Origin: an uncultured Acidimicrobiales bacterium
GTDB lineage: Bacteria; Actinomycetota; Acidimicrobiia; Acidimicrobiales; SZUA-35
DNA: 64,000 nt
Reading direction: 5' to 3'
Assembly (NCBI GenBank): GCA_937922785.1
Contig: CALAJQ010000023.1
Span: 124,001-188,000, forward strand
Below, one piece after another: positions 8,495 to 56,211 of this stretch; positions within the stretch are counted from its first letter, which is position 1; each line of letters begins with the position of its first letter. A program made the position numbers and the translations under genes. The notes under the pieces are model-generated. The model did not search any database and was not told where the DNA came from. It saw nothing but the letters and a program-made list of their open reading frames with translations.

Positions 8495-8524
8495 CGGGGA
8501 CCTCCATGAAGAGCCCGGCGAATG

Positions 8525-9697: not shown

Positions 9698-9704
9698 AGG
9701 CCGG

Positions 9705-10940: not shown

Positions 10941-10958
10941 ACTGCGCTCCTGGCTCTG

Positions 10959-10998
10959 TCTAACCGTGCAGAATCTAACCGTGCATTATCTAACACTG
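10959..10998. repeat. Three 15-bp direct repeats upstream of P450
   Basis: TCTAACCGTGCA occurs at 10959 and 10974, and a decayed copy TCTAACACTG at 10989, all in the same orientation with a 15-bp period. They lie in the 108-nt leader between the P450 start and the GNAT gene. Position suggests a regulator binding site or part of the promoter of the P450 operon; this is inference. Confidence 0.6.
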
Positions 10999-11048
10999 TA
11001 AGAATTACTATTCTCACCCTATTCAAGTCGGCGTGTCCAGCCAAGGAT

Positions 11049-36869: not shown

Positions 36870-36892
36870 CCATCGTGCCGAAGGATTTAGGT

Positions 36893-38364: not shown

Positions 38365-39645
38365 GTGTCATCTCGTGTCTCATCTCGAATTCGAAGCTCG
38401 ATAGCGCTAGCTGTCATCGCTTCAACCTGTGCCGTGATGGCCCCTGCAGCGGTATCTCCAGCAGGAGCGTCGATCGAGTGCAACATCTCCACTCCGTCGG
38501 CTGAATACGGCAGCGAGGTCGCTGCATCAGCACGACATGCGCAGATCTGGCGTCTATACCAGGCGTACTTCCTTCGCCAGCCCGATGCGGAAGGTCTCGA
38601 CTACTGGCTTGACGTTTCCTCAGAACTCACCCACGTTGAGGTTTCACAGTACTTCGAGCTCTCTAGAGAGTTCACCAACCGATACGGCACGCTGTCAGAT
38701 AGCGAGTTTCTAGAACTCATCTACGCCAATGTGCTTTGCCGCAATCCCGACGGCGAAGGCTTCGAATACTGGTTGAACTTCCTAACCACTGGTCAGCTCA
38801 GCCGGGCCTACATGCTTGTTTACTTCGCCGAGAGCGCTGAGTACATCGACTTCACCAAGACTTCATGGTCATACTTCGATGATCCAAATACAGCCAAGAT
38901 GTCCTCTCACGGCTATGAACTGATGTCGATTCCGGGCGGTATCGCAGTACAAGTCAACTTGGACGAAGTGGAGTTCAAGGCAAGCGACTCACGATGTGCC
39001 GTGGCCTCTATCAACGGGAACTGGTTCATTAACCCTTCGACGCAGAACCCGAACCCAATTGGTCTTGCTGTCATTGACGGTGTCGAATTGGACTGGGTTG
39101 CACCTAACGGCGTCGAAGACCGAGGCGTTCTCGGTGTTCGACATCGACCATACGGGCCCTACCCGCAAGAGGTCTTCATCGGAACCCACCTCAACAGCAA
39201 TCTGCACGACTTCCATAACGGCCAGGTGCTAGAGAATTGGTACGGGTTCTGGCCTGATCCAAACGCAGGCAAGGGTGAGTGGGACTCTGGCGAAGTTTGG
39301 GGGCCATCGCCTTCTCGGATCGCAAGCGAGTACGAATGGGCAGCAGCTGGAATCCCTCTGATCACCAACGGTCAGGTCTGGAGCGGGTTGTCAGCCGTCG
39401 CTGGCACTTACACCCACAAGACTGGTGGCCACAGCTTCGTTGCCCACGACAAGCAGGGCAACCTTTACTTCGGGTCTGTTGCCGGTAAGAGCAGCACTGA
39501 TCTCGTCAACTGGGCTCAGTCGGCGGGCATGGAAGATCTGATCAAGTTTGACGGCGGCGGCTCTGTTGAGCTGAACGTCGGCGGCGGTGCGGTAATCGGT
39601 GGCACCAGCCGAGACGTACCACTTTGGCTGGGTATCGGCTGCTAA
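38365..39645 (+). CDS. Secreted DUF4214 plus phosphodiester glycosidase (NAGPA)-like protein
   Basis: 426 residues from GTG 38365. A signal peptide with a basic start (SSRVSSRIRSS) and Ala-rich core probably ends near PAGASIEC. DUF4214 follows (about 55-170): LYQAYFLRQPDAEGLDYWL and a second half-repeat IYANVLCRNPDGEGFEYWL. The C-terminal 240 residues resemble NAGPA-type phosphodiester glycosidases: ASINGNWF, GIPLITNGQVW, LVNWAQSAGMEDLIKFDGGGSVELNV, where the DGGGS motif is the family hallmark. It would act on a sugar phosphodiester of the envelope; substrate unknown. Several cysteines suit an exported protein. Confidence 0.75.
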   Translation: MSSRVSSRIRSSIALAVIASTCAVMAPAAVSPAGASIECNISTPSAEYGSEVAASARHAQIWRLYQAYFLRQPDAEGLDYWLDVSSELTHVEVSQYFELSREFTNRYGTLSDSEFLELIYANVLCRNPDGEGFEYWLNFLTTGQLSRAYMLVYFAESAEYIDFTKTSWSYFDDPNTAKMSSHGYELMSIPGGIAVQVNLDEVEFKASDSRCAVASINGNWFINPSTQNPNPIGLAVIDGVELDWVAPNGVEDRGVLGVRHRPYGPYPQEVFIGTHLNSNLHDFHNGQVLENWYGFWPDPNAGKGEWDSGEVWGPSPSRIASEYEWAAAGIPLITNGQVWSGLSAVAGTYTHKTGGHSFVAHDKQGNLYFGSVAGKSSTDLVNWAQSAGMEDLIKFDGGGSVELNVGGGAVIGGTSRDVPLWLGIGC

Positions 39646-39945: not shown

Positions 39946-40362
39946 TTAGTTTCCTTGGAACGGCGAAGCCTCCGCTAGCACGTTCAGGCGAATCGGCTCT
40001 GCGCCAATAATTCCGAGAATGATCAGATCGACTTCCCCCGAAGCTTGAACTGACACCAAGTCGGCAGTCACTTGCAGTTGAAAGTTGGCGCCGCTCACTT
40101 CAAGGTTAGAAGCGGCGATTGCTGCGGCGGCCCTGTCTCGCCCTAGCTCTGGGATCACAATCAATTCACCATTCGCTCGATAGGCGTCGGGATCGACAGC
40201 ACTCGCTCCAGCTGAGGCTGCGGCATCGGCCACTGCGCTGAGCTGCCTTCTTTGGCTAAGCACGTTCCACAGTTCGATACTTATCCCGCCGACCGTAAGA
40301 AAAACTACGGCCATCAGAACGCCAAACAGGGCAAGCGAGCCGCGTTCGTTCTTGCGGTCCAT
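39946..40362 (-). CDS. TadE/TadG-like pilus-assembly or secreted protein
   Basis: 138 residues from ATG 40362 (MDRKNERGS); an open frame extends 19 codons upstream. The N-terminus has the TadE/G pattern: a charged start with ERGS, a membrane helix (LALFGVLMAVVFLTVGGISIEL), then QRRQLSAVADAAASAGASAV, matching the putative Flp pilus-assembly TadE/G-like family. The rest is a beta-rich extracytoplasmic domain. No other tad genes are visible near it, so it is either a stray subunit or the partner of a system elsewhere. Confidence 0.75.
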   Translation of the reverse strand: MDRKNERGSLALFGVLMAVVFLTVGGISIELWNVLSQRRQLSAVADAAASAGASAVDPDAYRANGELIVIPELGRDRAAAAIAASNLEVSGANFQLQVTADLVSVQASGEVDLIILGIIGAEPIRLNVLAEASPFQGN

Positions 40363-40441
40363 AGCCAAAGCTTGGTTCACAGCTAGTCCCAACCCGAGGG
40401 CAATCTGACCCCGATACATAGGGTCGGTGGCCTAAGCAGCC

Positions 40442-41626: not shown

Positions 41627-42997
41627 TTATGCGAGCGCGGCGATGATCGACTCGACTTCGGCCACGGTTGTTCGCGGGTTAACGAAGCAGAACCGAAAAC
41701 ATGGTTGCTTGTCGTGGCGGGACGGCACAACAAAGGACTCACCCGAAGCCATCTGAGCTTCGCTCCAAGCCTGATACTGGCCGGCGTCCCAGCCAATTCG
41801 TTCGAAGGCGCAGATGCTCAATTCTTGGGACCAAACCAACTTCAGATGTGGTGCTTTTTCGATTAGAGCCGCTGCGCTACGGGCCAGATCCAATGTGATT
41901 TCGACTGCTTCGGCATAGGCGTCTGTTCCGTAGGTAGCAATTGAATACCAGAACGGCAAGCCGCGGGCTCTTCGAGTCAGGTGAATGGCAAAGTCTGACG
42001 GATTCCAGTCACCGTGAGCATCGAGAAACTCGAGGTATCCAGCATGTTGGGCGTGAACTTCGCGCGCCTGGTCGGGGTCTCGCCATAACAATGCGCAACA
42101 GTCGAAGGGGGCAAACAGCCATTTGTGCGGATCGATGATTATTGAGTCAGCACGCTCGATGCCATCAAAATCAGCACGAACTGACGGCGCTGCTAGACCT
42201 GCGCCGCCATAGGCAGCGTCGACATGAAAGAAAACGTCGGCGTCTTGGCAAACTTTGCCGATTGAATCCAAGTCGTCGATGATTCCCAAGTTCGTGCTGC
42301 CTGCTGTTGCCACGACTCCAGCTATTCGCGTGCCGTGTTCAGCAATAGCAGCGGCAACTTCGGGGCCTTTCATACGGCGGTCTGAGCCGGTTGGCACCGG
42401 AATCACATCGGCGTCCATCACCATTGCCGCGGCGGGGACTGATGAGTGAGCGGTATCGGACACCACAAAAGCCCAACGGCTCGGAAGTGGTTTGCCAGCG
42501 GCCTCAAGCCTCTTCTTAGCCGCTCCCCTGGCACCGACCATGGCCGACAGGTTCCCTACCGTTCCCCCGGGTACAAAGACCCCTCCTGATTCGGTTGGCA
42601 GTCCGGCAAGGTCGGCCAGCCACCGCAACGCCTCGTTCTCCGCAAACACTGCGCCAGCGCCCTCGGTCCACGAGCCGCCATAAATCGAACTAGCGCCCAC
42701 TACAAGGTCAAACAAGACTGCCGCTTCGCTGGGCGCGGCTGGCACAAAGGACAAATACTTGGTGTAGTCAGTCGAAAGACACGCTGGCTGCAGGGTCTCA
42801 GCGAAGATTTCCAACGCCTTGTAACCGCCAATTCCCTCGGGTGTGATTGTCTCCCCGCAAGCTTCACGAAGCTCTGCTTCAGTCTTGGCCTCTCCCAACG
42901 GAACAGGATCGAGCCGGGTTCGCCAGCGTGCGTACTTAACCACCTCGTCCGCTAACGCATCTGTTTCAGCGTCGTAGTGGTGCATAGAAGGAGTCAT
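41627..42997 (-). CDS. Group II PLP-dependent amino-acid decarboxylase
   Basis: 456 residues from ATG 42997 (MTPSMHHYDAET), 10 nt after the solute-binding protein stop, with GAGG upstream. The PLP lysine is in IIIDPHKWLFAPFDC (about residue 290); FFHVDAAYGG is the cofactor-binding strand, and FVPGGTVGNLSAM and SVPAAAMVMD are further landmarks of the aromatic/aspartate/diaminobutyrate decarboxylase family. It makes a primary amine from an amino acid. Its place directly after a polyamine-type binding protein suggests a link between amine formation and amine sensing; the substrate is not deducible. Confidence 0.88.
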   Translation of the reverse strand: MTPSMHHYDAETDALADEVVKYARWRTRLDPVPLGEAKTEAELREACGETITPEGIGGYKALEIFAETLQPACLSTDYTKYLSFVPAAPSEAAVLFDLVVGASSIYGGSWTEGAGAVFAENEALRWLADLAGLPTESGGVFVPGGTVGNLSAMVGARGAAKKRLEAAGKPLPSRWAFVVSDTAHSSVPAAAMVMDADVIPVPTGSDRRMKGPEVAAAIAEHGTRIAGVVATAGSTNLGIIDDLDSIGKVCQDADVFFHVDAAYGGAGLAAPSVRADFDGIERADSIIIDPHKWLFAPFDCCALLWRDPDQAREVHAQHAGYLEFLDAHGDWNPSDFAIHLTRRARGLPFWYSIATYGTDAYAEAVEITLDLARSAAALIEKAPHLKLVWSQELSICAFERIGWDAGQYQAWSEAQMASGESFVVPSRHDKQPCFRFCFVNPRTTVAEVESIIAALA

Positions 42998-43007
42998 CGG
43001 GGTGGCC

Positions 43008-44138
43008 TCACAATCCAACTATTTCGGCGAAGTCGCCGTCTAGTTGGTTCTCCACATCGGCAGATAGGCCGCCCCATGTGAACAACCGGGCCTTAGTTTC
43101 TGCATCCGGGAAGATGAGCGGATCTCTGGCAATTGCGGCCGAATCGCCGCCTCGACTGGCAAGGACCTCCTGCACTCCGAGAACTGGCGATACATAACCG
43201 ACGTAGGCGGTGATGTTTGCCGCAACCTCGGGGTCATACACGTAGTTCATGAACGCCCCGGCCGCCGCCAAGTTCACTGCACCACGCGGTATCACCATTG
43301 TGTCAAACCACTGAATAGCGCCTTCGTCGGGAATGCTGAATTGGATATCAGGTCGCTCGGCCTGAAGTAGTGCTGTGTCACCAGACCAACCCATGGCAAC
43401 TGAAAGTTCTCCTGACGCCAACTTTGGGGCGAAGTCTTCAAACGTGACTGCACCCACGTGCCCAGATTCAACGGCCTCCTGGATTCTGGCCAGACCCGCG
43501 TATGCGGTGGCTTCGGTTGCTCGGGACGGATCGTCGCCGTTGGCCAGCATCGCAAGCCCCACCGCTTCACGCATCTCTCCGATTATTCCGACCTTTCCAC
43601 TGAAGCTTCTGTCGAATAGATCAGCTACCGAATTCAGCTCACGCTCGGTCTGGGCTGGGTCATAGGCAATACCTGTCATCCCGGCTTGCCACGGCATCTG
43701 ATATCGGGAACCTCGGTCCCAACCATTAGTCATGTATGCGGGGTCAAGGTTGCGATGGTTCGGGATGATCTCAATCGGTAGCGCCTGCCCATCACCCCGC
43801 CCTATCAACTCAGCCGCTCTCCAGTTGGTTGGAATTACGATGTCGTAGCGATTTCCGTCGCCACTGATCGACGCCTCGATCAAATCGAAGCCGGAGTAGT
43901 TGTCCTCATAGAACTCGTCATAGGAAATTTGAAGCCCGAGATCAAATGAGGCTCGTTCGATGGTTCCGGCGACAGAGCCGTCTGCGATGTCGATGTAGTC
44001 GGGCCAGGTCAGGATTGACAAAGACTGCCCAGTCCCGAGGTCGAAGGTTGGTGCTTGGCCCGCACTAGTTGAGCAACCGGCAAGGCCAACTGCACCAAGG
44101 CCCGCAATAAAGCTGCGCCGGCTCCAATTAGCTTTCAC
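43008..44138 (-). CDS. PotD-type solute-binding lipoprotein, probable sensor
   Basis: 376 residues from GTG 44138, whose GTGA overlaps the GlnX-like stop; GGGAG lies 5 nt before. The signal has a twin-arginine start (SRRSFIAGLGAVGLAGC) and a lipobox cysteine. The mature part fits spermidine/putrescine-binding proteins: LSILTWPDYID, YDIVIPTNW, PWQAGMTGIAYDP, VAMGWSGDTALLQ and QWFDTMVIPRGA, the latter two holding acidic residues in positions that in PotD contact amines. No permease or ATPase gene is adjacent, so it probably senses rather than imports. It takes the place of GlnH next to GlnX in the mycobacterial PknG pathway. Confidence 0.88.
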   Translation of the reverse strand: MKANWSRRSFIAGLGAVGLAGCSTSAGQAPTFDLGTGQSLSILTWPDYIDIADGSVAGTIERASFDLGLQISYDEFYEDNYSGFDLIEASISGDGNRYDIVIPTNWRAAELIGRGDGQALPIEIIPNHRNLDPAYMTNGWDRGSRYQMPWQAGMTGIAYDPAQTERELNSVADLFDRSFSGKVGIIGEMREAVGLAMLANGDDPSRATEATAYAGLARIQEAVESGHVGAVTFEDFAPKLASGELSVAMGWSGDTALLQAERPDIQFSIPDEGAIQWFDTMVIPRGAVNLAAAGAFMNYVYDPEVAANITAYVGYVSPVLGVQEVLASRGGDSAAIARDPLIFPDAETKARLFTWGGLSADVENQLDGDFAEIVGL

Positions 44139-45406
44139 GAGTACTCCCTGAGTCGCAGTTGGAGACCATACAAACTTGCCATCAGCGCCAAGATTGATCC
44201 GATCAGCACATACAAACCGGTGTTGGCCACAGCGGTTGCCGCAGAGTCGACTCCTTCGTTGAACTGTGTCGTGTTGTCAGACAAAACACTTTCAATGCTG
44301 GTGTTGAGACCATTGAAGTTTGCAAACTTCTGATTCGGATCATTGGCCGGCGTGTTCAAGTACCTTTCCCAACGAGATTCCAGCTCACTAGCTGCGGCCT
44401 GTTCTCGCAAGGAGTCTGCGTTCTCTACCGCAGTAATAATTCCAAGATCTACTGCCGCCTCAAGGTCATCAATGTTCCCGGTGGAGGTTCCCAACAGTGC
44501 CAGGTTGGACTCAGACTGCAGGGCGTAAGCCGCTCGTTGAATCTCGGCGGTAGCGGTGATCGAGTTGTAGCCACCGTCCAAAGCGTTGTCGATTGCTGCC
44601 TGGCGAACCAGCGCTCCCCTGACCAACATCACAGTAGTGACCAGTATCAGAACTGTTCCGATTAACAACGGCAGGTTAAAGATGCGGTTCGTCGATTTAA
44701 AAAGGAATAGCTGCACGAGCGCCAACAGAATTAGACAAAGCACTCCCAGGGCGATGGCGATGATGGTTAGCGTTCGCCCTTCGCCTGATCTGGTATCGAG
44801 CTGATCCTGGAGTTGTGCCGAGATCAGCTGGACAGAGTTGTCGACTGTCGCTTGGGTCTCAACCAGGGTGTTCCTCAAGGTGTTTTCTGCACCCGGTTGC
44901 TCGAGCCGCACAGCCAAACGAGCCGACTCTATTTGCCCCGAATAAGAGTTCAGGCTTGCCGAAATCTCCTTCAGGGCACTGTGGGAGAGGCTGTCGTCAC
45001 CGACCAAGGAAGATACATCCTCAGTGCGGTCAGACGCCCGGCGTAGCGCATCCTCATACAGGTTGCGCTGGATTCGGTTTTCCTCTCCACCATCGGTAGC
45101 CGACAGGAAAGCGGCCGTCGCCGCAGTGTTCGACTCAGCCACACTGGCAAACACGTCCTGGACGCCGACCAAAGAAGGAGCAGTGTTGGCCCTTGCGGCG
45201 GCAGTGGCGTTGCGAGAAACCAGACCGGCCACAGTACCGACAACTGCGAAAGCCACAATAAACAGGGTCAGCGCAGCGGCGCGAACCCGCAGAGCTCGGA
45301 CCGTTGAACCAACGGGGGTCTCCGAGGATCCGGCTTCGGTTTTGGACGAAGGAGGCGGGGGAAGTCGAGTTGTTGGAATAGTTGGTGCGGAAGCTGTCAT
45401 AGCCAA
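44135..45406 (-). CDS. GlnX-like four-helix membrane signal protein
   Basis: 423 residues. A Pro/Ser/Thr-rich cytosolic N-terminus (about 1-42) is followed by four membrane helices (about 43-63, 212-236, 244-264, 398-417). Two external helical bundles of about 150 and 130 residues lie between helices 1-2 and 3-4. The short loop between helices 2 and 3 (LFKSTNRIF) and the tail (QLRLREYS) are cytosolic. This topology matches mycobacterial GlnX, which transmits ligand binding by GlnH to PknG. Sequence identity was not measured; assignment rests on topology and on the neighbours. Divergent from the PknG operon with 50 nt between starts. Confidence 0.8.
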   Translation of the reverse strand: MAMTASAPTIPTTRLPPPPSSKTEAGSSETPVGSTVRALRVRAAALTLFIVAFAVVGTVAGLVSRNATAAARANTAPSLVGVQDVFASVAESNTAATAAFLSATDGGEENRIQRNLYEDALRRASDRTEDVSSLVGDDSLSHSALKEISASLNSYSGQIESARLAVRLEQPGAENTLRNTLVETQATVDNSVQLISAQLQDQLDTRSGEGRTLTIIAIALGVLCLILLALVQLFLFKSTNRIFNLPLLIGTVLILVTTVMLVRGALVRQAAIDNALDGGYNSITATAEIQRAAYALQSESNLALLGTSTGNIDDLEAAVDLGIITAVENADSLREQAAASELESRWERYLNTPANDPNQKFANFNGLNTSIESVLSDNTTQFNEGVDSAATAVANTGLYVLIGSILALMASLYGLQLRLREYS

Positions 45407-45456
45407 CTTTCACCTTAGATTGCCCCAGACCCCAAGGGTGGCCGCTCACACTAAGA

Positions 45457-46686
45457 TTGTGCGAGGTGACATCAATTCCTGGCAGCCCAAACTCTGGCGT
45501 TAATGGTCAGCCCATGCCCGGCCAGACCGCCCCGCCGCCAGGCAGCGATCCGCTTGCCCGGCTTACGCACTTTGAAAAGTCGGTGGCAGGGTTGCGCGCT
45601 GGACTGGTTGATCTGGAGGCAACGCCGTCATATCTCATGTTGTCTGGAGACGGATTGACAGGGGCAACAAAGGCAAAGCTTGCTGCAGCTGCAGGACGGG
45701 CAGAGGCGCTATGGCCGCTGCTTGTTGTGGTTGGTGCGCGACTCGACGAAGCAAGAACCATTGCGGGTCAGGGCGGAGGATTCCTAAACCGAATAGATAG
45801 CGAACTCGCCGAATGCTTGGCTAAGCCGCTAGACCCTGTCGCTGCGCCAGGATTGGAAACCAAGCGCCTCACCTTGGCTCAAGCTATCGGTGAGATTCGC
45901 GATAGATATCAGGCTGTCCGCGAGGGTGCTAGCGAGGTTGAAGCACTGTGGCTAGACGTGCTTCCCCGAATTGACGCTGCCCTCGCCACACTTGGTGGAC
46001 TTAGCGAGGACGAGAAAGAACTTGGCGTCACCGAACCTCTGATCGGTAGGGCCCGTGCACTCGCCAGCGATCTAAACGAACGATTGGTCACCGACCCACT
46101 TAGTGTTCACGCAAACGACGGAGCCAACCTCGACAGCGTCGTCGCCGAAGCCTCGAGACAAATTGCGGGCCTGCAAACGGGCCGAGAAGACCTTGCTGAT
46201 GACCTCATTGAAGCAAAGCAGCTTTTGGGAACTCTAAGGACCTTGCGATCACGTGCTGTCGCCAACCGGATTGAGTCCGAGACAAAGGTCAAGGCGGCAA
46301 CCGGTCTTCGCCAAGTTCCTTCCGAAGCAATCTTTGACCACGCCGAAAAAGGCTTGGGCGCACAGCTTCGGCGAGTCACTGCAACCGACAGCTGGTCCTC
46401 CCAGCGGGCCCTGCTTGATCTCTGGTTGACGTCGGCCCACCGGCTAGAGCATCAACTCAGCTCGGTCGAGTCGGCCAACGGCGCCCCGTTGAAAGCTAGA
46501 GAAACTCTTCGGGGCCGGCTGCGGGCCTATCAAGCAAAGATGGCGGCCGTTGGCCAAGCCGAAGATCTGGAACTCACGGGAATTGTGGACGCGGCCACCG
46601 ATGAACTCTTTACTGTCCCGACAGATCTCGATCGTGCGGATGACCTGATTGCCAGCCTGGCTGAGCGGCTACGCGGGAGAAGCTAG
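45457..46686 (+). CDS. Helical coiled-coil protein, first gene of the PknG operon
   Basis: 409 residues, almost entirely helical with heptad-like stretches and no membrane segment, cysteine cluster or recognised domain. The N-terminus is Pro/Gly-rich (GQPMPGQTAPPPGSDP). The start is uncertain: TTG 45457, GTG 45466 or ATG 45514. TAAGAT at 45452-45457 could be a -10 box making GTG 45466 leaderless. It is followed by pknG after 18 nt. A scaffold role between membrane sensor and kinase would fit but is inference. Confidence 0.75.
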   Translation: MCEVTSIPGSPNSGVNGQPMPGQTAPPPGSDPLARLTHFEKSVAGLRAGLVDLEATPSYLMLSGDGLTGATKAKLAAAAGRAEALWPLLVVVGARLDEARTIAGQGGGFLNRIDSELAECLAKPLDPVAAPGLETKRLTLAQAIGEIRDRYQAVREGASEVEALWLDVLPRIDAALATLGGLSEDEKELGVTEPLIGRARALASDLNERLVTDPLSVHANDGANLDSVVAEASRQIAGLQTGREDLADDLIEAKQLLGTLRTLRSRAVANRIESETKVKAATGLRQVPSEAIFDHAEKGLGAQLRRVTATDSWSSQRALLDLWLTSAHRLEHQLSSVESANGAPLKARETLRGRLRAYQAKMAAVGQAEDLELTGIVDAATDELFTVPTDLDRADDLIASLAERLRGRS

Positions 46687-46704
46687 AGTTGGACCGAGGT
46701 GGCG

Positions 46705-49176
46705 ATGACTAGTTGTAACGAGACAGGCTGCGGCGGGACAATTGCCGCCGACGGTTACTGCGACACATGCGGCACTAAGCCGAATTCGGCTGTTCCAGCG
46801 CCGGTCGCTGCAGGTCCAGCTCCAGCTCCGACATCGACTCCAACCGGACACACAACGGGTTCTGTCTGCAACCGCGACGGATGTCAGGGAACGATTTCGC
46901 CCGACTCCTATTGCGACACTTGCGGTCTCAAGGCCGCGGGAGGCCCGTCAACAACGCCAGCCCGACCTGCGGGTTCCACTTCCAAGCCGACGTCCGGCCA
47001 TGCGACTATGGCCCCGGCGTCTGGTCTGGCCGCTCCAGCACCGATCGAAATGTCCTCCAGACTTCCTGGAGCAGGAACCGCAACCGCACGGAGCCGCCTC
47101 ACAACTAGCTCATCGCGAACTGGATCAACCCGCTCTGCGATCGGTGCTGGCCTGATCAACGTCGCGCCAACACCAATTGGCGACCCCGCCATGGCTGTCA
47201 TGTCTGATTCCAAGATTCAGAAAGTTCTGGGGGCCGTTCCCGAACCGGAGCGTTTTTGTTCCTCGTGTGGAAGGCCTGTCGGTCGAGCAGACGAAAACCG
47301 CGAAGGTCGACTGAAAGGGTTCTGCGGAACGTGCCGCACCCAGTTTGACTTTGTCACGAACGAGCCTGCTCTCGTTCCCGGAGAGCTAGTTGGCGGCCAA
47401 TATGAAATTCTCGGCCCGATGGCACACGGCGGCATGGGCTGGATCTACTTGGCACAAGACAAACGCGTATCAGACCGCTGGGTTGTACTTAAAGGTCTAC
47501 TGAATTCAGAGGACCCTGATGCGGCTTTGGCCGCAGTTGCCGAGCGTCGCTTTCTTGCCCAGATCGAGCACGCCAACATCGTAAACATCTATAACTTTGT
47601 GACCCACAAGAATGCTGGCTACATCGTTATGGAAATGGTGGGCGGCCAGTCGCTCAACTCCAAGCTCAAGGATCGCCGCAAAGCAAACGGAGGCGTCGCC
47701 GACCCGTTACCGCCCGCGGAGGCAATTGCTTACGTGCTTGGCATCTTGGGAGCGTTTGGGTACCTGCATGACCTCGGACTTGTCTATAACGACCTCAAGC
47801 CGGCCAACATCATGGCGCTTGGCGACCAGGTCAAGCTGATCGATGTTGGCGCCGTCATGCGCATCGACGACCCAAACGCAGCGATCTTTGGAACCCAAGG
47901 TTTCCAGGCTCCCGAAGTGGCCGAAATGGGCCCTTCAATTGCGTCGGATCTTTTTACTGTTGGCAGAACTCTGGCCGTGATGATGATTCGCTTCACATTC
48001 CACACAGGCGAATATCAGTACAAGCTGCCCGACCCCAGCGCAGAGCCGCTCTTTGCCAAGTATGAGTCGCTCTATCGATTCCTTCTGAGGGCGTGCGCCG
48101 ATCACCCTGATGACCGCTTCCAGTCAGCGGCAGAGATGGCCGAGCAGCTCACGGGTGTATTGCGACAGGTAGTTTCGCTACAGACGGGCAAGGATCATCC
48201 CCGGCCATCCCAACACTTTGGCGGCGACAATCTCACCACGCTGCTGGTGCAGTCAGCTGACGCTTATGACGTCGACGTGCCTGACTGGCGGGTACTACCC
48301 AATCCAAAGGTTGACCCTGCCGACGCGGCTGCGTCATTCCTGCTTGATCTTCCAGAACTGGATCCCGTTAAGTCGCTTGAGTTACTCGAAGCCGGAGCCG
48401 CAAGCGCCATGGGGCCAACCCGTGAACTCAGGTTGAGAATCGCCCGAGAGACTTCCGAAACTGGTACTAACCCAGATGCCATTTTGCGAGAGCTGGAAGC
48501 TCTCGATCCGTGGGACTGGCGGCCAACCTGGCAACGCGGCGTCTTCTACCTGAGGCAAGGTACCGGAGAGCTAGCGGCATCTAGCTTCAACAGAGTTTGG
48601 ACCGAGCTGCCTGGAGAGATGGCCCCGCAACTAGCAGTAGCGATGAGCGCAGAGGTCGCTGGCGACTACAACCGTGCCGCTCAGGTCTACACCAGAGTGA
48701 TGACCACAGACTCAACGTTTGTTTCTGCAGCGTTCGGATTGGCGCGATGCCGAGCCAAGTTGAACCAACCCGCCGACGCCGTCGCAGCGCTTAACAGCGT
48801 TCCTACAACATCGGCCGCTCACTATGACGCCCAGGTTGCTGCGGCCCGGGCTTTGATATCTGGCGGCTCAGCGGCGACGCCGTCACTCGGAGATCTCTCC
48901 CAAGCCTCAGCAGTGATTGAACGGCTTCAGCTGGATGCGGCCGAACGAGCAGAACTGAGCGCAGATGTCTATCAGCAAGTGCTTGAAGGTATTGAGTCCG
49001 GGCAGATCCAGCCCGACGCTAACAAGGGTGTGCTTGGCTCGAAGCTGACTTTACGAGAGATAAAGAAGGGCCTTGAACAGACTTACCGGACCCGAGCACG
49101 TTTTGCCACCAATGCGACAGAACGTGCGATGTATGTGGATCGAGCCAACAAGGCTCGGCCGAGAACGCTGTTCTAG
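46705..49176 (+). CDS. pknG: Serine/threonine protein kinase PknG
   Basis: 823 residues from ATG 46705 (GAGG 5 nt before; GTG 46699 also possible). Two small zinc ribbons (CNETGCGG ... CDTCG, about 4-24; CNRDGCQG ... CDTCG, about 55-76) precede a Ser/Thr/Pro-rich linker, then a rubredoxin-like pair (FCSSCGRP, FCGTCRTQF). The kinase domain (about 230-500) has GPMAHGGMGWIYL, VVLKGL (lysine about 262), YNDLKPANIM with the catalytic aspartate near 363, and LIDVGAV; FGTQGFQAPEV, VGRTLAVM and the TPR tail are as in PknG. In mycobacteria PknG phosphorylates GarA and thereby controls glutamate and 2-oxoglutarate flux. Confidence 0.95.
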   Translation: MTSCNETGCGGTIAADGYCDTCGTKPNSAVPAPVAAGPAPAPTSTPTGHTTGSVCNRDGCQGTISPDSYCDTCGLKAAGGPSTTPARPAGSTSKPTSGHATMAPASGLAAPAPIEMSSRLPGAGTATARSRLTTSSSRTGSTRSAIGAGLINVAPTPIGDPAMAVMSDSKIQKVLGAVPEPERFCSSCGRPVGRADENREGRLKGFCGTCRTQFDFVTNEPALVPGELVGGQYEILGPMAHGGMGWIYLAQDKRVSDRWVVLKGLLNSEDPDAALAAVAERRFLAQIEHANIVNIYNFVTHKNAGYIVMEMVGGQSLNSKLKDRRKANGGVADPLPPAEAIAYVLGILGAFGYLHDLGLVYNDLKPANIMALGDQVKLIDVGAVMRIDDPNAAIFGTQGFQAPEVAEMGPSIASDLFTVGRTLAVMMIRFTFHTGEYQYKLPDPSAEPLFAKYESLYRFLLRACADHPDDRFQSAAEMAEQLTGVLRQVVSLQTGKDHPRPSQHFGGDNLTTLLVQSADAYDVDVPDWRVLPNPKVDPADAAASFLLDLPELDPVKSLELLEAGAASAMGPTRELRLRIARETSETGTNPDAILRELEALDPWDWRPTWQRGVFYLRQGTGELAASSFNRVWTELPGEMAPQLAVAMSAEVAGDYNRAAQVYTRVMTTDSTFVSAAFGLARCRAKLNQPADAVAALNSVPTTSAAHYDAQVAAARALISGGSAATPSLGDLSQASAVIERLQLDAAERAELSADVYQQVLEGIESGQIQPDANKGVLGSKLTLREIKKGLEQTYRTRARFATNATERAMYVDRANKARPRTLF

Positions 49177-49203
49177 TGGTCTGCCTGTGATGATCGGCTT
49201 GCC

Positions 49204-50193
49204 ATGATTTGTCCGAACTGTAGCGAAGTGGCGCCAGAGGGCGCAGCCTGGTGCGAAGCCTGCGGGTCCGACCTGAGCACAACCGGATCGGCCCGTTGTG
49301 AATCCTGCGGCGAACAAGAAGTCTCCGAGGACGACTACTGCATGGCATGTGGCCATAAACAGCCATCTGAGCGTGACCATCAGATCTTCAACGACGGCCC
49401 GGTGGCCGCCGTCAGCGACCGCGGCAAACGCCATCATCACAACGAAGACGCGGTCGCCATCGGCGCCTTGGCAAACGGTGGAGCAGTGGCTGTGATCTGC
49501 GACGGCGTCTCATCGACTCCCGGATCTGCGCTTGCGTCAATCAGCGCAGCAATCGCCGCGCGTAACCATCTAGTCACAGGCTTGACAAACACCCACACAA
49601 GCCAAGACCCGTTGACCAACTCTGAGGTTGAAGCTCTACTGGTAGGCGCGGCCGAGGCAGCTCAAGACAGCGCCGCCAAAACTCCTCCGGGGAAAAGACG
49701 GAGCAAGGCTGATACGGCCGGGCCGCCATCAGCCACTTTTGTTGCCACGGTTGCGTTGCCCACAGTCAACGGCTCAATCAATCTGCACACCGGCTGGCTG
49801 GGCGACTCGCGGGCTTATTGGGTCAACGGTGAGAAGTCACAGCTATTGACCACAGACCATGAAATCGGAGGATCGCTCAGTCGTTGGATTGGGGCCGACG
49901 CTCCGAACACCACCCCCGAAATTGTCCATCACTCGATGGAAGAAGGCGGCAGAGTAGTCGTGTGCAGCGACGGTCTTTGGCGCTACGCCGAAACACCAAT
50001 AGAAATGGCTGAGGCAGTAAAGCGATTCGATACTGAAGATGGTGCCGACCTTGCTGAAAGTCTCGTCGGATTCGCCAACGACAACGGCGGGCACGACAAT
50101 ATTTCGGTAGCGCTTTGGCCTGTCAACCTTTCAACCGAAGCTGCCACAGTAGATACAACGAATGAGAAAGTTGAGATAGCGCTAGATGAGTAG
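49204..50193 (+). CDS. PP2C-type protein phosphatase with two zinc ribbons
   Basis: 329 residues. Two CxxC...CxxC ribbons open the chain (CPNCSEVAPEGAAWCEACG, CESCGEQEVSEDDYCMACG). The PPM core (about 65-310) keeps the metal residues: NEDAVAIG, VICDGVSSTPG, GWLGDSRAYW, CSDGLWRY and GHDNISVAL. It should remove phosphate from Ser/Thr, so it is the natural counterpart of PknG 27 nt upstream. The zinc ribbons resemble those of PknG and the FHA protein and may help them assemble. Confidence 0.93.
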   Translation: MICPNCSEVAPEGAAWCEACGSDLSTTGSARCESCGEQEVSEDDYCMACGHKQPSERDHQIFNDGPVAAVSDRGKRHHHNEDAVAIGALANGGAVAVICDGVSSTPGSALASISAAIAARNHLVTGLTNTHTSQDPLTNSEVEALLVGAAEAAQDSAAKTPPGKRRSKADTAGPPSATFVATVALPTVNGSINLHTGWLGDSRAYWVNGEKSQLLTTDHEIGGSLSRWIGADAPNTTPEIVHHSMEEGGRVVVCSDGLWRYAETPIEMAEAVKRFDTEDGADLAESLVGFANDNGGHDNISVALWPVNLSTEAATVDTTNEKVEIALDE

Positions 50194-51466
50194 CTTCACA
50201 GCAGACGTCTTTCAGAACGAGTACTTGCCAGCTGGCACTGAGGTAGTCGACGCAGTCGTAACAGTTAATGCGGGTGACGCGGTTGCTGGATCCTCTTCAA
50301 ATAGTGGCTCGGTAGAGGTCATCGTCATTGACACATCAGGGTCCATGAGCGAAGACCGCGGCGCCAAGATCGCCGCAGCACGAACCGCCACGAAAGCAGC
50401 AGTAGATGTGATTCGTGACGGAGTCGAGTTTGCTGTGGTTGGCGGCAATGAAGGCGCCTACATGATCTACCCGAACGAGGGGCTTGCCATCTCAACCCCC
50501 GAGACCAGGGCCGACGCAAAAAAGTACGTAGGCCGAGTTCAGGCAAAAGGTGGAACCGCTATCGGTACCTGGCTCAGAGCTGCGGCATATTTGGTCAAGT
50601 CGACTCCGACCGAGCTGGCTCACTGCCTTCTCCTGACGGATGGAAAGAATCAGCACGAGTCAGACGAGGTGCTAAGTAGCGCCATTAATGCCTGCGTCGG
50701 TTTGTTTCAGTGTGACACGAGAGGCCTCGGCACCGACTGGCAGGTGGCCGAGCTACGTCGAGTTTCCGCTGCCCTTTTGGGAACATGTGACATCATCCCC
50801 GAGCCCCATGAAATGGAAGCCGAGTTCACCCGTCTCACCGAGGCCGCCATGGGCAAACAAGTAAGTTCGGTCGCACTGCGGATGTGGACACCCAAAGGCT
50901 CCACGGTTGATTTCGTAAAACAAGTCTCGCCTGATTTGCAAGACCTAACGGCTTCGGCCCAAAGCGTTAACCCTCTAACTAATGACTACCCCCTCGGAGC
51001 CTGGGCCGAAGGCGAGGAACGCGACTACCACGTGCAAATACGCATACCGGTTGGCGACGTCGGCGATGAACGCTTGGCGGCAAGAGTCATGTTGGCAATC
51101 GACGGTGTCGACGAACCTGCCGCTTTGGTGCGCGCCGTCTGGACCGATGATGAACGCCTAAGCACTCGTATCAATCGCGAAGTCGCTCACTACACCGGTC
51201 AGGCGGAACTGGCGGATGCGATAGCCGACGGACTCGCCGCTCGTGACACTGGCGACAGCCACGAAGCCACAATCAAACTTGGTCGCGCAGTTCAGCTGGC
51301 CCATGAAGCTGGACATTCCGACACAGTCAAGCTGCTTAAGAAAGTTGTGGACGTTGAAGATCCAGCAACTGGAACCGTCAGGCTGAAACGCCAGGTTGCC
51401 AAGACTGACGAGATGGCGTTAGACGTCAGATCGACGCGCACAATCCGGGTAAAGAAAGCCCAGTAG
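50186..51466 (+). CDS. vWA-domain protein
   Basis: 426 residues. A short N-terminal beta region (EYLPAGTEVVDAVVTV) precedes a von Willebrand A domain (about 45-215) with a complete MIDAS: DTSGSMS, threonine in GGTAIGTWL and aspartate in LLTDGKN. The second half has a beta-sandwich (ALRMWTPKGSTVDF to VMLAIDGV) and a C-terminal helical part. The protein is cytosolic. Its start overlaps the PP2C stop by 8 nt and its stop overlaps the FHA start by 1 nt, indicating translational coupling. vWA domains usually mediate protein contacts; a complex with the kinase, phosphatase and FHA protein is inferred. Confidence 0.9.
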   Translation: MSSFTADVFQNEYLPAGTEVVDAVVTVNAGDAVAGSSSNSGSVEVIVIDTSGSMSEDRGAKIAAARTATKAAVDVIRDGVEFAVVGGNEGAYMIYPNEGLAISTPETRADAKKYVGRVQAKGGTAIGTWLRAAAYLVKSTPTELAHCLLLTDGKNQHESDEVLSSAINACVGLFQCDTRGLGTDWQVAELRRVSAALLGTCDIIPEPHEMEAEFTRLTEAAMGKQVSSVALRMWTPKGSTVDFVKQVSPDLQDLTASAQSVNPLTNDYPLGAWAEGEERDYHVQIRIPVGDVGDERLAARVMLAIDGVDEPAALVRAVWTDDERLSTRINREVAHYTGQAELADAIADGLAARDTGDSHEATIKLGRAVQLAHEAGHSDTVKLLKKVVDVEDPATGTVRLKRQVAKTDEMALDVRSTRTIRVKKAQ

Positions 51467-52035
51467 TGTCCACGCCCGGCCAGTGCCCCAATTGTCAAAC
51501 AGCCCACGGCGAGAGCGACCTGTTCTGCGAGAACTGTGGTTATGACTTCATCACTGGGTCGTTACCTTCACTTGACGGCAACGATGCTCCCGTTCCAACA
51601 GAGGTTGAATCGTCCCAACCGGCTTCTCCGGTAGGCGGCCCACAAATCCTGGTGGACATAGAGGTCAGTTCGGACTACTTCGGCCATGCCGTGTCCGAAA
51701 CAGAGCTTCAGATTCCAGACCCACCGCCTGAATCGGCTCAGCTGACTTTTAGCGCAATTGAAATCCACATCGGTCGGACGAGTGAGTCCAGAGGGATACA
51801 TCCAGACATCGATGTGGCAGCGATAACCGCAGACCCTGCGGTCTCATCCCGACATGCTGTAATCCGGCTGGGGGCTACCGGGACGCTAGCGATAACCGAT
51901 CTCGACTCTACCAATGGCACCGTCATTGGTGATCCTGCGGCCGAAGCAGTTGCCGCGAACGTTGCAGTCCCGCTCGAAGATGACACCTGGGTCTACCTCG
52001 GCGCTTGGTCCCGGATCAGGGCCCGAGTGAGCTGA
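51466..52035 (+). CDS. Zinc-ribbon FHA-domain protein (GarA-like candidate)
   Basis: 189 residues starting with GTG 51466. A zinc ribbon (CPNCQTAHGESDLFCENCG) is followed by a Pro/Ser/Glu linker of about 65 residues and a C-terminal FHA domain (about 95-185) with phosphothreonine-binding residues GRTSES, SSRHAV and LDSTNGT. GarA, the PknG substrate of mycobacteria, also ends in an FHA domain, but has an N-terminal threonine motif that I do not see here. It may be a GarA counterpart or a module that recruits phosphorylated partners. Last gene of the operon. Confidence 0.85.
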   Translation: MSTPGQCPNCQTAHGESDLFCENCGYDFITGSLPSLDGNDAPVPTEVESSQPASPVGGPQILVDIEVSSDYFGHAVSETELQIPDPPPESAQLTFSAIEIHIGRTSESRGIHPDIDVAAITADPAVSSRHAVIRLGATGTLAITDLDSTNGTVIGDPAAEAVAANVAVPLEDDTWVYLGAWSRIRARVS

Positions 52036-52038
52036 AGC

Positions 52039-54699
52039 TCATTGCTGCTTGACTCGCTGAAGCTCATTGTTCAGCGACTCCGTTGCATCCAGCTGACCTA
52101 ACGGCACAAGGCGTTCGCGGTGAAGTCGTCGAAGCTCCGTGCCCTTACCAATTCGCGCAGCAAGACCTTCGGCGAGACCGATAGTTAACGGAGTTCTCGG
52201 CGTGATGGCCTCTTGTAGCAGCTGCCATGCACGATCGGAATCCCGTTGATGAATCGCCAGTGCCGCCCAAGCCACCAAGGCGTCGTTTGCCATCCGACTC
52301 AGCCGACCTCGACCAGCGTCATAACTGAATTGGACTATCTCCTCCGCAGCGTCACCAGCTCGATCCAGATCAAGGAGGCAAACAGCCCGAATGACAGCTG
52401 AAGAATCCCACACCGAAGCAGACCAATCTTCGCTATCAAGAGTCTGAAGAGCGTCCGCTGGACGGTCTGTAAGAAACTGAGTTGCGGCATAGGACAAACT
52501 GGCAATGTAGAAATGGGTGTTCCTAACCGCAAGGTGCTGGGCGTTCGCAAACGTCTTTTCGAACAGCTGACACGCCGATTCATAGTCACCGTTGTAAAGC
52601 GAGTAGGAGCCTCGTGCCCAGTCGATGGTGATCTGCTCCTGGTGCCCCAGAGACTCAGCTTCCACCAATTCGTCGGCAACCGAAATCAGCCGGAGTGTTA
52701 GCTCATGATCTGATCGGTTCTTGGTGTAGGCCTGCATTGCCAATGCTTGCGCCCTTACTTCAACCGTAGAGGCCGTTAGCAAGGCTGAGAATGTCCGGTG
52801 GACCTCCACAAAGTCGTCTAGCTGAAGGCATAACTGGGCGTAGTTGTGGCTGAGCCACTCCCCCACACGCACATCAAGAGCAGTGACTGGCTCGATGATC
52901 GACTCGATCCAAGAGACACCGATTGATGGTGAAACTTCGTTGGTCCAAAGCCCGAAACACCCCAAAGCAATCTCGCCAGCCTCAGTCCACGATTCTGTTG
53001 CGTTGGCCCATTCCAGCGCAGAGCTGATGTTGGGCCAGTGCGGTGCGAGTTCAGTTGCTCGCTTGGCATCAGAGCCTTCCAACCAATCGGTTGTAGAAGC
53101 AAGGTCGTGATAGTAAGCGAGGTGCATGTCTCGCGAAAGGGCCAATTCTGAAGCTCGATCGAGCAAGTCAGTTGCGTAGTACCGCACAGTTTCAAGTAGA
53201 CGAAAGCGGCTTCCTGAACCGTCGTCTTCAACCGATATCAGACTCTTTTGAACAAGGGATTGAAGAAGGTCGAGTGACTCGAACTCGTCACTGTCGCCGG
53301 CAACTTCGGTTGCAGCTTCTAACGAGAACGGACCTATGAACACTCCTACACGGCGGAAGAAAGCCTGTTCGGCCTCGTCCAGCAGGTCATAACTCCAGTC
53401 CAAGGTTGCCTGGATGGTTTGGCGCTTGCCTTTGGCCCCGCTACGAGTTCCGCTTAGCAGTAGAAGCCGATCTTCCATCCGGGCCGAAAGCTCCTTGGCG
53501 CTTAAGACCGCCATTCGGGCTGCTGCAAGTTCAAGCGCAAGAGGCATCCCGTCCAGCTTGGTGCACAAGTCGATGACGTCGGAGCGGTTGTGATCACCCA
53601 CGTAGAAGTCTGGGGCAGCCGCTTGTGCTCGCTGCTCGAAGAACTCCAATGCCGGTCCACCACTGGCGAGGTCAATCTTTAGTGGAGTCACTTGAACGAT
53701 TCGCTCGCCGCTGACGCTAAGCCGCTCACGGCTGGTGGCCAGAATTACGGTCTTTCCGACACGACCCATGAGGTCAGCCGCGAACTGAGCGCACGCGTCA
53801 ATCAGGTGCTCACAGTTGTCAAGCACTAAAAGAGCGTCCCGCTGCGCGAGGTGGTCAACGATCTGACGCATTGGGTCGCCACCGCTAAGACTTAGGCGAA
53901 CTGCCCTGGCCAGGAATGGGGCCAGGCCCTCGGCGTTGGTCACTGAAATAAGATCGGCGAAGTAACAACCGTCGCTTCGGTTAGGCAGCTCCTGATGTGC
54001 GGCTTCGATGGCCAATCTGGTTTTACCGCAGCCCCCAGAACCGGTGAGAGTGACCAGACTTTGAGTTTCGAGGTCTGCTCTTATCCGGTGCAGAAGCTCG
54101 TCGCGCCCAACTAGCTTGTCACCAAGGTTTGGCAAATTTGACAGCCGCGGGTTCACTACCCGAAGAGGTCGGTGGGCCGCCTGACCCAACTGGTAGATCC
54201 CGACGGGGTCTGCGATGTCCTTAAGCCTGTGCTCGCCTAGCCAAAGCAAGTCGAAACCGTCGGCCATCTCAATGGCTGAGACAACCTCTGGCGACATTAA
54301 AATCTGTCCACCGTTGCCAGCGTCTTCGATACGGGCGGCGGTGTTAATGACCGGTCCGTAATAGTCCGTGCCCTTTAGGGTGCTGTGCCCCCGATGCAAC
54401 CCGATTCGTACCAAAAGGGGTGGATCGTCGCCCCAGTTTGCATTCTTCAGCCCATCAGTTATCGCCACCGCTGATGCCAAGGCGTCAGTAGCGTTAACAA
54501 ACGACGCTCGAAAGCCGTCGCCCGCAAACCCAAACATAAAGCCGTTGTGTGTTTCCACAACCGATTCGATCAGCTGATTGTGGGTCTCAAATGACCTAGC
54601 AGTGCCTTCAGTATCTGCTGCCCAAAGCCGTGTAGATCCCTCAACATCGGTGAAGAGATAGGTCAACAGGCCCTCTGGTGGAGACGATATTGGGGTCAT
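52039..54699 (-). CDS. Class III cyclase domain-NB-ARC ATPase-TPR regulator
   Basis: 886 residues. The cyclase domain (about 10-175) keeps the metal aspartates in YLFTDVEGSTRLW and GFAGDGFRASF, with NTAARIEDAGNGGQIL following. The ATPase part (about 190-450) has Walker A TGSGGCGKTRLAI, LLVLDNCEHLID and ATSRERL, as in AfsR/MalT-like STAND proteins. Helical repeats fill the rest. There is no DNA-binding domain, so output is probably cAMP or protein interaction. It ends 4 nt from the FHA gene, convergently, and is divergent from AAA paralog 2. Such cyclase-ATPase proteins are common in actinobacteria. Confidence 0.92.
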   Translation of the reverse strand: MTPISSPPEGLLTYLFTDVEGSTRLWAADTEGTARSFETHNQLIESVVETHNGFMFGFAGDGFRASFVNATDALASAVAITDGLKNANWGDDPPLLVRIGLHRGHSTLKGTDYYGPVINTAARIEDAGNGGQILMSPEVVSAIEMADGFDLLWLGEHRLKDIADPVGIYQLGQAAHRPLRVVNPRLSNLPNLGDKLVGRDELLHRIRADLETQSLVTLTGSGGCGKTRLAIEAAHQELPNRSDGCYFADLISVTNAEGLAPFLARAVRLSLSGGDPMRQIVDHLAQRDALLVLDNCEHLIDACAQFAADLMGRVGKTVILATSRERLSVSGERIVQVTPLKIDLASGGPALEFFEQRAQAAAPDFYVGDHNRSDVIDLCTKLDGMPLALELAAARMAVLSAKELSARMEDRLLLLSGTRSGAKGKRQTIQATLDWSYDLLDEAEQAFFRRVGVFIGPFSLEAATEVAGDSDEFESLDLLQSLVQKSLISVEDDGSGSRFRLLETVRYYATDLLDRASELALSRDMHLAYYHDLASTTDWLEGSDAKRATELAPHWPNISSALEWANATESWTEAGEIALGCFGLWTNEVSPSIGVSWIESIIEPVTALDVRVGEWLSHNYAQLCLQLDDFVEVHRTFSALLTASTVEVRAQALAMQAYTKNRSDHELTLRLISVADELVEAESLGHQEQITIDWARGSYSLYNGDYESACQLFEKTFANAQHLAVRNTHFYIASLSYAATQFLTDRPADALQTLDSEDWSASVWDSSAVIRAVCLLDLDRAGDAAEEIVQFSYDAGRGRLSRMANDALVAWAALAIHQRDSDRAWQLLQEAITPRTPLTIGLAEGLAARIGKGTELRRLHRERLVPLGQLDATESLNNELQRVKQQ

Positions 54700-54801
54700 A
54701 TTCCACCTTTCAGCACAGTCGACACCTAATCAGGTTACTTGCTAGCCATTCAGCCCGAAATTTTCCTTTGGTAGGCGGTAAAAACTGCCGAAGACTTGGA
54801 C

Positions 54802-56211
54802 ATGGAAGACGCAACCCTCGTGGGCGAACGAAGGACCTACCCCCGGGCTCCGGGCAAAATTGAACAACTCGGGATTCTGCCTTCAGTTGTTGAGGATCTC
54901 TTTGTAAGACGCCTGCTGCAAGAACGAATCTCCACTGTCAGCCATCTGTCCCAAGCGCTGGGCGTCCGGATGTCGATTGGTCAAGAGCTTGCCGAAAGCC
55001 TTCGAACTCGCCAGATGGTCGAGTACCACGGCATGGAAGGACGCGACTACCGAATCGGTTTAACCGAGGCAGGCACCCGATTTGCCAAAGAGCGTGCTCA
55101 ACAGTCCAGCTACGCCAGCTTCGCACCTGTGTCGCTTGAGGCATACACCGAAATGATCTGGGCTCAGAAGGCCGAGATGCATATAAACCGTGAGTCAATC
55201 CGGGAAGCGTTCGGAGACCTCGTGGTTGCCGATGAGCTACTGGACCAACTCGGCCCTGCCTTCATGAACGACGGTGCCATCTTCCTGTACGGCCCCCCAG
55301 GCACCGGCAAAACTTCGCTGGCGGAACGAATGATCCGTATCCACAAGGACAAAGTCTTGGTCCCACGTGCACTTGAGGTCGATGGCCAGATTATTCAGGT
55401 CTTCGATCCTTCGATTCACAACCCGGTCGAAGAACAACCAGAAGCTCTTGATCCCCGCTGGATGCTTTGTGACCGACCGATTGTTTTGGTTGGTGGCGAA
55501 ATGACCATGAGCATGTTGGAGCTTGACTACGACCCGAACTCTGGAACCTACACGGCCCCGATCCAGCTTCAGGCAAACAACGGCATCCTCGTTGTAGATG
55601 ACTTCGGACGCCAGCAGATGACGCCCGGTGAGCTACTTAACCGATGGATCGTTCCGCTATCTCGAAGCATTGACTTCCTAAAGCTGGTCAGCGGTTCAAA
55701 ATTCACTGTTCCTTTTGAGCTCAAGCTCGTGGCATCGACCAACCTCGATCCGCAGGAACTTGGCGATGATGCGTTCCTACGCCGTCTCAAGAACAAGGTC
55801 TTCATCGGGCCAATCTCAGACAATGCGTTCAACTGGATTCTGGTTCGAGCGGCCAAGGCTATGAAGATCGAAGTCACCGCAGATGCTGCTGAGCATCTTC
55901 GCCAAGTGGCAATTGACAACATCGACGAGCTACGACCCTACGTTGCCATTGACTTCCTCGAGATGATGAAGGGCATTGCTCTCTATGAGGGACGCCCCCG
56001 CGAACTCGATCGCTACATGATCGATCGAGTTGCATCGGTATATTTCTTCACCGACGAAGCCGAACCTCCTCCACTTCACGCTCAATCTGGTCCGGGCGGC
56101 GCCCAGCCAGTGCCAGCCAACGCCCCTATCTCATACCAGCAGAACATCCCGGGCGGTTATGTCGCTCCGGTCCCCACCCCGGGCGGAGTATCGGCCCGCG
56201 CAACGCACTAG
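54802..56211 (+). CDS. wHTH-AAA+ ATPase (paralog 2)
   Basis: 469 residues from ATG 54802; TTG 54796 is also in frame. It shares architecture and long stretches with the protein at 36893: LPSVVEDLFVRRLL, a winged-helix-like region to about residue 105, YASFAPVSLEAYTEM, Walker A GPPGTGKTSLAE (about 164), ILVVDDFGRQ (about 262), NRWIVPLSRSIDF and ASTNLDPQELG. Unlike paralog 1 it carries a Pro/Gly/Ala-rich tail of about 45 residues (GPGGAQPVPANAP ... PTPGGVSARATH) that may bind a partner. Function unknown. Its stop overlaps the convergent deaminase stop by 4 nt. Confidence 0.88.
   Translation: MEDATLVGERRTYPRAPGKIEQLGILPSVVEDLFVRRLLQERISTVSHLSQALGVRMSIGQELAESLRTRQMVEYHGMEGRDYRIGLTEAGTRFAKERAQQSSYASFAPVSLEAYTEMIWAQKAEMHINRESIREAFGDLVVADELLDQLGPAFMNDGAIFLYGPPGTGKTSLAERMIRIHKDKVLVPRALEVDGQIIQVFDPSIHNPVEEQPEALDPRWMLCDRPIVLVGGEMTMSMLELDYDPNSGTYTAPIQLQANNGILVVDDFGRQQMTPGELLNRWIVPLSRSIDFLKLVSGSKFTVPFELKLVASTNLDPQELGDDAFLRRLKNKVFIGPISDNAFNWILVRAAKAMKIEVTADAAEHLRQVAIDNIDELRPYVAIDFLEMMKGIALYEGRPRELDRYMIDRVASVYFFTDEAEPPPLHAQSGPGGAQPVPANAPISYQQNIPGGYVAPVPTPGGVSARATH

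Follow-up and report, generated by a model that had tools for sequence, protein, structure and literature searches.

Which external signal is read by a PknG kinase locus when the binding protein encoded next to its GlnX-type membrane transducer is of the PotD type and not GlnH? The question is raised by eight genes at positions 41627-52035 of a 64,000-nucleotide stretch of DNA (hereafter the window) from an uncultured Acidimicrobiales bacterium (contig CALAJQ010000023.1, positions 124,001 to 188,000). The precedent, the GlnH-GlnX-PknG pathway, is described in PMC6069109, PMC9769921, and PMC8546545, and PMC6069109 names the stimuli that activate bacterial Ser/Thr kinases as an outstanding question. 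We consider it likely that the locus encodes a GlnX-PknG signalling system in which a polyamine-binding protein of ABC-transporter lineage has supplanted GlnH. Like the GlnH-GlnX-PknG-GarA/OdhI pathway of Mycobacterium and Corynebacterium, it co-encodes GlnX and PknG homologues with an extracytoplasmic binding lipoprotein. Unlike that pathway, it has a PotD/PotF-type sensor rather than an SBP_bac_3 protein, its gene layout is divergent with a decarboxylase added, and a PP2C phosphatase, a vWA protein, a long-helix protein, and an FHA protein that is not OdhI are encoded within it. The divergent eight-gene arrangement had been noticed in a first-pass annotation of the window and was confirmed by gene positions, domain profiles, and conservation; eight open reading frames fit the span exactly, and the named domains were matched by Pfam or NCBIfam profiles.

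The proposed sensor is a solute-binding lipoprotein (43008..44138, minus strand) of the SBP_bac_8 family. Its best NCBIfam models were PotD (1.9e-24) and PotF (2.6e-24), with 86 bits each against curated equivalog cut-offs of 582 and 636 bits, respectively, which are not reached. The nearest solved relatives by sequence were polyamine receptors (4gl0, 8.4e-32; 7xjm, 8e-30). The predicted structure, with a mean predicted local distance difference test score (pLDDT) of 91.5, has the PotD/PotF fold, with Z 37.8 to 4gl0, Z 37.4 to PotD (1poy; root-mean-square deviation 2.6 over 320 aligned residues), and Z 36.3 to PotF (1a99; 2.7 over 320 residues). In the structure comparison, every one of the top 26 matches (Z 33.0-37.8) bore the name of a polyamine receptor, some of them putative, and 14 of these were PotF and its variants. 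The first-pass assignment of the protein to the PotD rather than the GlnH type is thus borne out by both profiles and predicted fold. Its signal peptide (44073..44138, minus strand; SRRSFI...LAGC in the sequence) combines a twin-arginine motif with a lipobox and ends at C22. The RR motif was present in 26 of 28 aligned rows from PknG loci, the remaining two (L057 and L061) having been called from a later start, and C22 was invariant in 14/14. The protein is probably exported by the twin-arginine translocation route and anchored outside the membrane.

To what kind of ligand would such a protein respond? Pocket positions were taken from the PotF residue list given in PMC8666671. They were transferred by eye from an alignment with solved relatives, and the resulting comparison covers 28 of 32 PknG-locus sequences, the window included; L063 and L065 (partial) and L064 and L084 (near-copies) were omitted. 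Two of the 13 positions, Y40 and Y314 of PotF, are residues that we take to belong to the pocket. Eight residues, W45, Y48, E188, E191, W251, W277, D279, and W355, were invariant in all 28 rows, and invariance was enriched in the pocket (8 of 13 positions, with 61 of 341 invariant across the mature protein; P 4e-4 by hypergeometric test). In keeping with the polyamine-type sensor proposed by the first-pass annotation, the pocket is of the polyamine type: W45, W251, and W277, which make up the aromatic box, occurred in 28/28, as did the carboxylates E191 and D279, position 47 was Asp or Glu in 26/28, and position 254 was Asp in 22/28. Y315, at the position of PotF Y314, was Tyr in 26/28. At the mapped first-shell positions, the window protein has no Arg or Lys; the residues there are acidic, aromatic, or small and polar, and several of the carboxylates are conserved. 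The protein therefore resembles PotD/PotF receptors in its predicted fold and its acidic and aromatic pocket; it differs from them in having no adjoining PotABC and at the distal end of the pocket, where W106 (27/28) stands against PotF S87, W355 (28/28) against PotF L348, and the invariant E188 occupies the position of PotD D168. The pocket residues argue for, without proving, a ligand bearing two amines or more.

Several observations speak against a polyamine as ligand. Position 47 was Leu or Lys in two of the 28 rows, and position 254 was Gln in five and Asn in one. An invariant Arg, R190, adjoins E191 at the PotF salt-bridge position E184; because solved PotD-type relatives also carry Arg there, it does not decide the ligand. 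YdcS and the binders of γ-aminobutyrate (GABA) and opines share the PotD fold at Z 31.3 and below, among them 8jv1, whose title gives a SAR11 PotD with GABA. It is accordingly possible, though we consider it unlikely, that the protein senses for GlnX and PknG another amine or cation-bearing metabolite, such as the decarboxylase product or GABA. PotD-fold proteins do bind GABA and opines, the decarboxylase accompanies the binding protein in 30 of 31 related loci, and the distal tryptophans W106 and W355 differ from their PotF counterparts, whereas the first-shell carboxylates and aromatic residues suit a ligand that contains more than one amine and no Arg or Lys was mapped there, R190 next to E191 notwithstanding.

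Do these genes belong together? Named species genomes were searched with an alignment of 14 binding-protein sequences, which gave 65 loci; the comparison set consists of 31 of them (L048-L076, L083, and L084), in which the binding protein is 48-65% identical in the best segment and which, judged by title, come from Acidimicrobiia or from unplaced actinobacterial metagenome-assembled genomes. Recurrence of the gene set in relatives had been set beforehand as a test of the first-pass annotation, and the set was kept: GlnX was found in 29 of the 31 loci and the decarboxylase in 30, all misses being at contig ends, and a coiled-coil gene divergent from GlnX was found in 25 of the 28 loci informative for the kinase arm (the contigs of L054, L063, and L067 were too short). 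PknG was found in 23 loci. All eight genes were present in 17 loci, and GlnX and the binding-protein gene were less than 80 bases apart in 28 of 29. In the window, the leftward genes appear operon-like, because the GlnX and binding-protein genes overlap by 4 bases and the binding-protein and decarboxylase genes by 11 bases, as counted from mechanically called starts. Within the GTDB family, GlnX was found in 18 of 39 genomes and together with a PotD-type protein in 16, the source genome included; these genomes overlap the named-species set, and the two counts are not independent. GlnX is rare in the wider class (at least 16 of 296 sampled genomes), where at most five candidates per genome were scored and the GlnX counts are lower bounds. 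The conservation of the gene set across species is far beyond chance.

The same comparison bears on whether the kinase takes part. Three loci (L048, L056, and L059) have GlnX, the binding protein, and the decarboxylase with no PknG on the stretches examined, and in L056 the binding-protein gene lies 4 kb from GlnX, which detracts from a signalling locus centred on PknG. GlnX-GlnH pairs without PknG nearby also occur in L042, L043, L044, and L046, of the same family. These cases would fit an independent amine-response unit made up of GlnX, the binding protein, and the decarboxylase, with a merely historical tie to PknG. We regard such a unit as quite improbable, given that the divergent coiled-coil/PknG arm was kept in 25 of the 28 informative loci and that other families likewise encode GlnX and PknG together.

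Does the binding protein instead serve a transporter? The first-pass annotation had stated that it has no local transporter partner, and no PotABC permease or ATPase gene was found at the locus or on the examined stretches of the 31 relatives. The only other match to the binding protein in the source genome (E 7e-23) lies inside a complete potABCD operon on another contig (C22), near which an agmatinase and a GABA transaminase are encoded. In contrast to the loci with PknG, the six closest outgroup relatives (L077-L082, 38-45% identical) all lie beside PotA- and PotB-like genes. In L077, one open frame (7880-11014) spans both a Pot ATPase and a PotD-type binding protein, which may be a fusion or an effect of assembly. 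Phylogenetic trees, which were quick searches with support only from the Shimodaira-Hasegawa-like approximate likelihood-ratio test (SH-aLRT), placed the binding proteins of PknG loci in one group (SH-aLRT 100) that joins transporter-linked actinobacterial proteins at 100. With Pot genes absent locally, a transporter-linked outgroup, and a separate potABCD that comes with a binding protein, the protein at the locus gives the impression of having been taken over from a transporter to serve as a sensor. Two points run counter to this view: a weak PotA-like ATPase match (4.7e-13) lies in the window about 41 kb from the locus, and the protein might still serve the potABC of contig C22. That it is an ordinary transport protein, found in the locus by chance and working with that potABC, would agree with its transporter-linked outgroup and with the presence of potABC in the genome. 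We nevertheless give this explanation very little weight, since the C22 operon has a binding protein of its own, GlnX was kept alongside in 29 of 31 loci with no PotABC near, and the protein sits where GlnH, a signalling protein, sits in other loci.

A sensor recruited in this way implies a comparison with loci that retain GlnH. The GlnX-family membrane signal transducer (44135..45406, minus strand) matched NF058618 at E 3.8e-43, in agreement with the homology proposed at first pass; its 148 bits fall below the curated cut-off of 250, which counts against the assignment. In all 16 other typed GlnX or PknG loci (L119-L125, L127, L134, L170-L172, L042, L043, L044, and L046), the partner of GlnX was an SBP_bac_3 protein (GlnH family) by Pfam. 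The GlnH profile used for positions came from five loci that it typed; ten loci were rescanned with Pfam, and six had been typed by Pfam before. Loci that stayed untyped were L136 (contig end), L138, L140-L145 and L147, with weak GlnX matches (E about 6e-5 to 4e-4), the PknG-domain loci L126, L128, and L129, which lack a GlnX or GlnH match, and L130, which lacks a match to any window protein; genomes G288, G223, and G211, above the PknG-domain cut-off, were left out of sensor typing. Conversely, no GlnH-type profile match at 1e-8 was obtained in the window or in the 31 PotD-type loci. Genomes G001 and G002 hold both a GlnX-GlnH pair and a PotD-type protein with GlnX.

The order GlnX-GlnH-long helix-PknG-PP2C-vWA-FHA on one strand was found in three f53 genomes and in five further ones from the class; in L120, GlnX is present only as a tail at the contig end. 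Three f58 loci (L124, L125, and L127) have GlnX-GlnH-PknG and no match to the remaining genes. The kinase-arm gene order of the GlnH-type loci L119-L123 and L170-L172, from other Actinomycetota, is identical to that of the window, whereas these loci differ in having a GlnH-type sensor, a single-strand layout, and no decarboxylase-profile match in their stretches. The GlnX tree, which carries a long-branch warning and in which row L138 is labelled GlnH though no binding protein was seen on its contig of 4.7 kb, splits by partner into PotD-type and other loci (SH-aLRT 100). Apparently, a transporter-type binding protein replaced GlnH once. Because the GlnH type is widespread, we infer that the PotD type is probably the derived one, in which GlnH was replaced, the GlnX arm was flipped, and the decarboxylase was gained.

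The rightward arm begins with the long-helix (coiled-coil) protein without a named family (45457..46686, plus strand), for which no Pfam or NCBIfam match was obtained. Its predicted model (mean pLDDT 90.8, predicted template modelling score 0.70) gave no PDB match at E<=0.001, the best being EzrA at E 1.0; 23 of 26 sequences were aligned, and homologues occur in the GlnH-type loci L119-L123 and L170-L172. PknG (46699..49176, plus strand) was correctly named at first pass: rubredoxin (PF16919, 1.5e-17), kinase (PF00069), and PknG_TPR (PF16918, 2.1e-57) domains were all matched, and two N-terminal cysteine-motif repeats were seen by eye in the sequence. It is followed on the plus strand by a PP2C phosphatase with a double zinc ribbon (49204..50193; PF13672, 8.5e-11; PF12773, 2.2e-7), a vWA protein with a VWA_3_C tail (50186..51466; PF18571, 5.1e-25; PF13768, 2.8e-11), and a zinc ribbon and FHA protein (51466..52035; PF00498, 7e-8). 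Here, the first-pass annotation fared less well. It had described a phosphatase of its own and a vWA protein as parts of this kinase circuit; PP2C, vWA, and FHA genes, together with that of the coiled-coil protein, also belong to the older GlnH-type PknG module, and we dropped the idea that they were an addition made here. Nothing in the analysis points to the role of assembly factor that it gave to the vWA protein. The local FHA protein, which had been taken as the GarA counterpart, was likewise rejected as GarA/OdhI: the OdhI model did not match it at E<=0.001, while a likely OdhI/GarA ortholog is encoded elsewhere, about 56 kb from the locus (C23:232527; L113:1462-2001), between gcvH and an ftsR-type regulator. 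This protein matched the OdhI profile at 2.7e-46 and 156.7 bits (curated cut-off 200) over positions 27-129 of 130; it carries an N-terminal zinc ribbon, and the usual N-terminal part with the phospho-peptide is missing.

What does the decarboxylase add to the sensor arm? The gene (41627..43018, minus strand) encodes a group II decarboxylase dependent on pyridoxal 5'-phosphate (PF00282, 4e-57) with 4obu as its best PDB match (1.6e-41). In an alignment of 26 of the 31 sequences, H191, D267, H298, K299, and the loop residue Y328 were invariant (26/26); K299 is presumably the lysine that holds the cofactor and Y328 the mobile-loop tyrosine. No NCBIfam equivalog cut-off was reached, and the PDB and NCBIfam neighbours gave no substrate assignment. 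The family was matched at 1e-30 in 61 of 148 genomes of the class, the source genome included, which itself encodes five PF00282 proteins. The neighbourhoods of 20 homologues (44-56% identity) contained no GlnX or binding-protein profile match at 1e-20 and varied in content, with an 8-oxoguanine deaminase in L148, an adjoining helicase in L155, and an ABC importer in L166. The binding protein of the L166 importer had no match to the PotD-type profile at 1e-20. Because the family is widespread in the class and its contexts are varied and without GlnX, the decarboxylase is a recruited partner rather than a marker of the pathway.

As for the amines themselves, no match to the spermidine synthase family PF01564 was found in the source genome (96% complete), though potABCD is present, and the sole PF02784 match, a 243-residue segment below the model cut-off, best fits LysA. 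This gene content is suggestive of reliance on imported polyamines. Transamination of GABA consumes 2-oxoglutarate and gives glutamate, and in other bacteria this node is under the control of PknG. From the agmatinase and GABA transaminase encoded beside potABCD, a physiological link from polyamine through GABA to the 2-oxoglutarate/glutamate node is plausible.

How might the locus work? By analogy with GlnH-GlnX-PknG, the membrane-anchored lipoprotein would close on a di- or polyamine outside the cell and, once closed, dock onto the extracellular bundles of GlnX, which would relay this state inward to the TPR domain of PknG, with the long-helix protein as a possible intermediary. PknG would then phosphorylate FHA-protein targets, which the co-encoded PP2C would reset. 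Within the same cell, the decarboxylase would produce an amine; its probable role is to adjust the metabolism of amines. According to PMC5646818 and PMC9993111, NspS-MbaA of Vibrio cholerae, with homologues in Sinorhizobium, uses a PotD-like protein to sense external polyamines on behalf of a membrane signalling protein. The present locus is like NspS-MbaA in placing a PotD-like binding protein beside a membrane signalling protein, with polyamine sensing proposed here. The two differ in output, which is cyclic di-GMP turnover by MbaA there and would be a Ser/Thr kinase acting through GlnX here, and in neighbours, which here are GlnX and the decarboxylase and not the GGDEF-EAL partner of NspS. 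In a bolder form of the proposal, the PknG switch is a plug-in unit with an exchangeable sensor, the decarboxylase makes the very amine that is detected, and a Ser/Thr kinase informs cells of the amine output, their own or that of their neighbours; we hold this to be improbable.

Around the locus, two similar AAA (MoxR-like) ATPases with alike N-terminal parts lie on either side (36875-38221 and 54796-56211), with bpMoxR matches of E 3e-6 and 2e-4, respectively, under the cut-off. Immediately past the FHA gene and convergent with it, 52039-54699 encodes a cyclase domain joined to an NB-ARC/AAA part, AfsR-like. At lower coordinates than these eight genes, 38365-39645 encodes DUF4214 and a NAGPA phosphodiester glycosidase domain in one secreted-looking protein, and 39946-40419 a small TadE/G-like protein (PF13400, 1e-5).

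A change of the PknG/GlnX sensor to a polyamine or PotD type was not found in our searches of the open-licence literature. If polyamine binding holds true, polyamine sensing would lead through the locus to a Ser/Thr kinase; our searches of that literature gave no such route either. The natural swap offers a clean test, because the transducer and the kinase family are the same, the class of binding protein is different, and the usual input is known. With polyamine binding established, GlnX would be seen to accept unrelated classes of binding proteins, and another nutrient signal would be wired to the same kinase switch.

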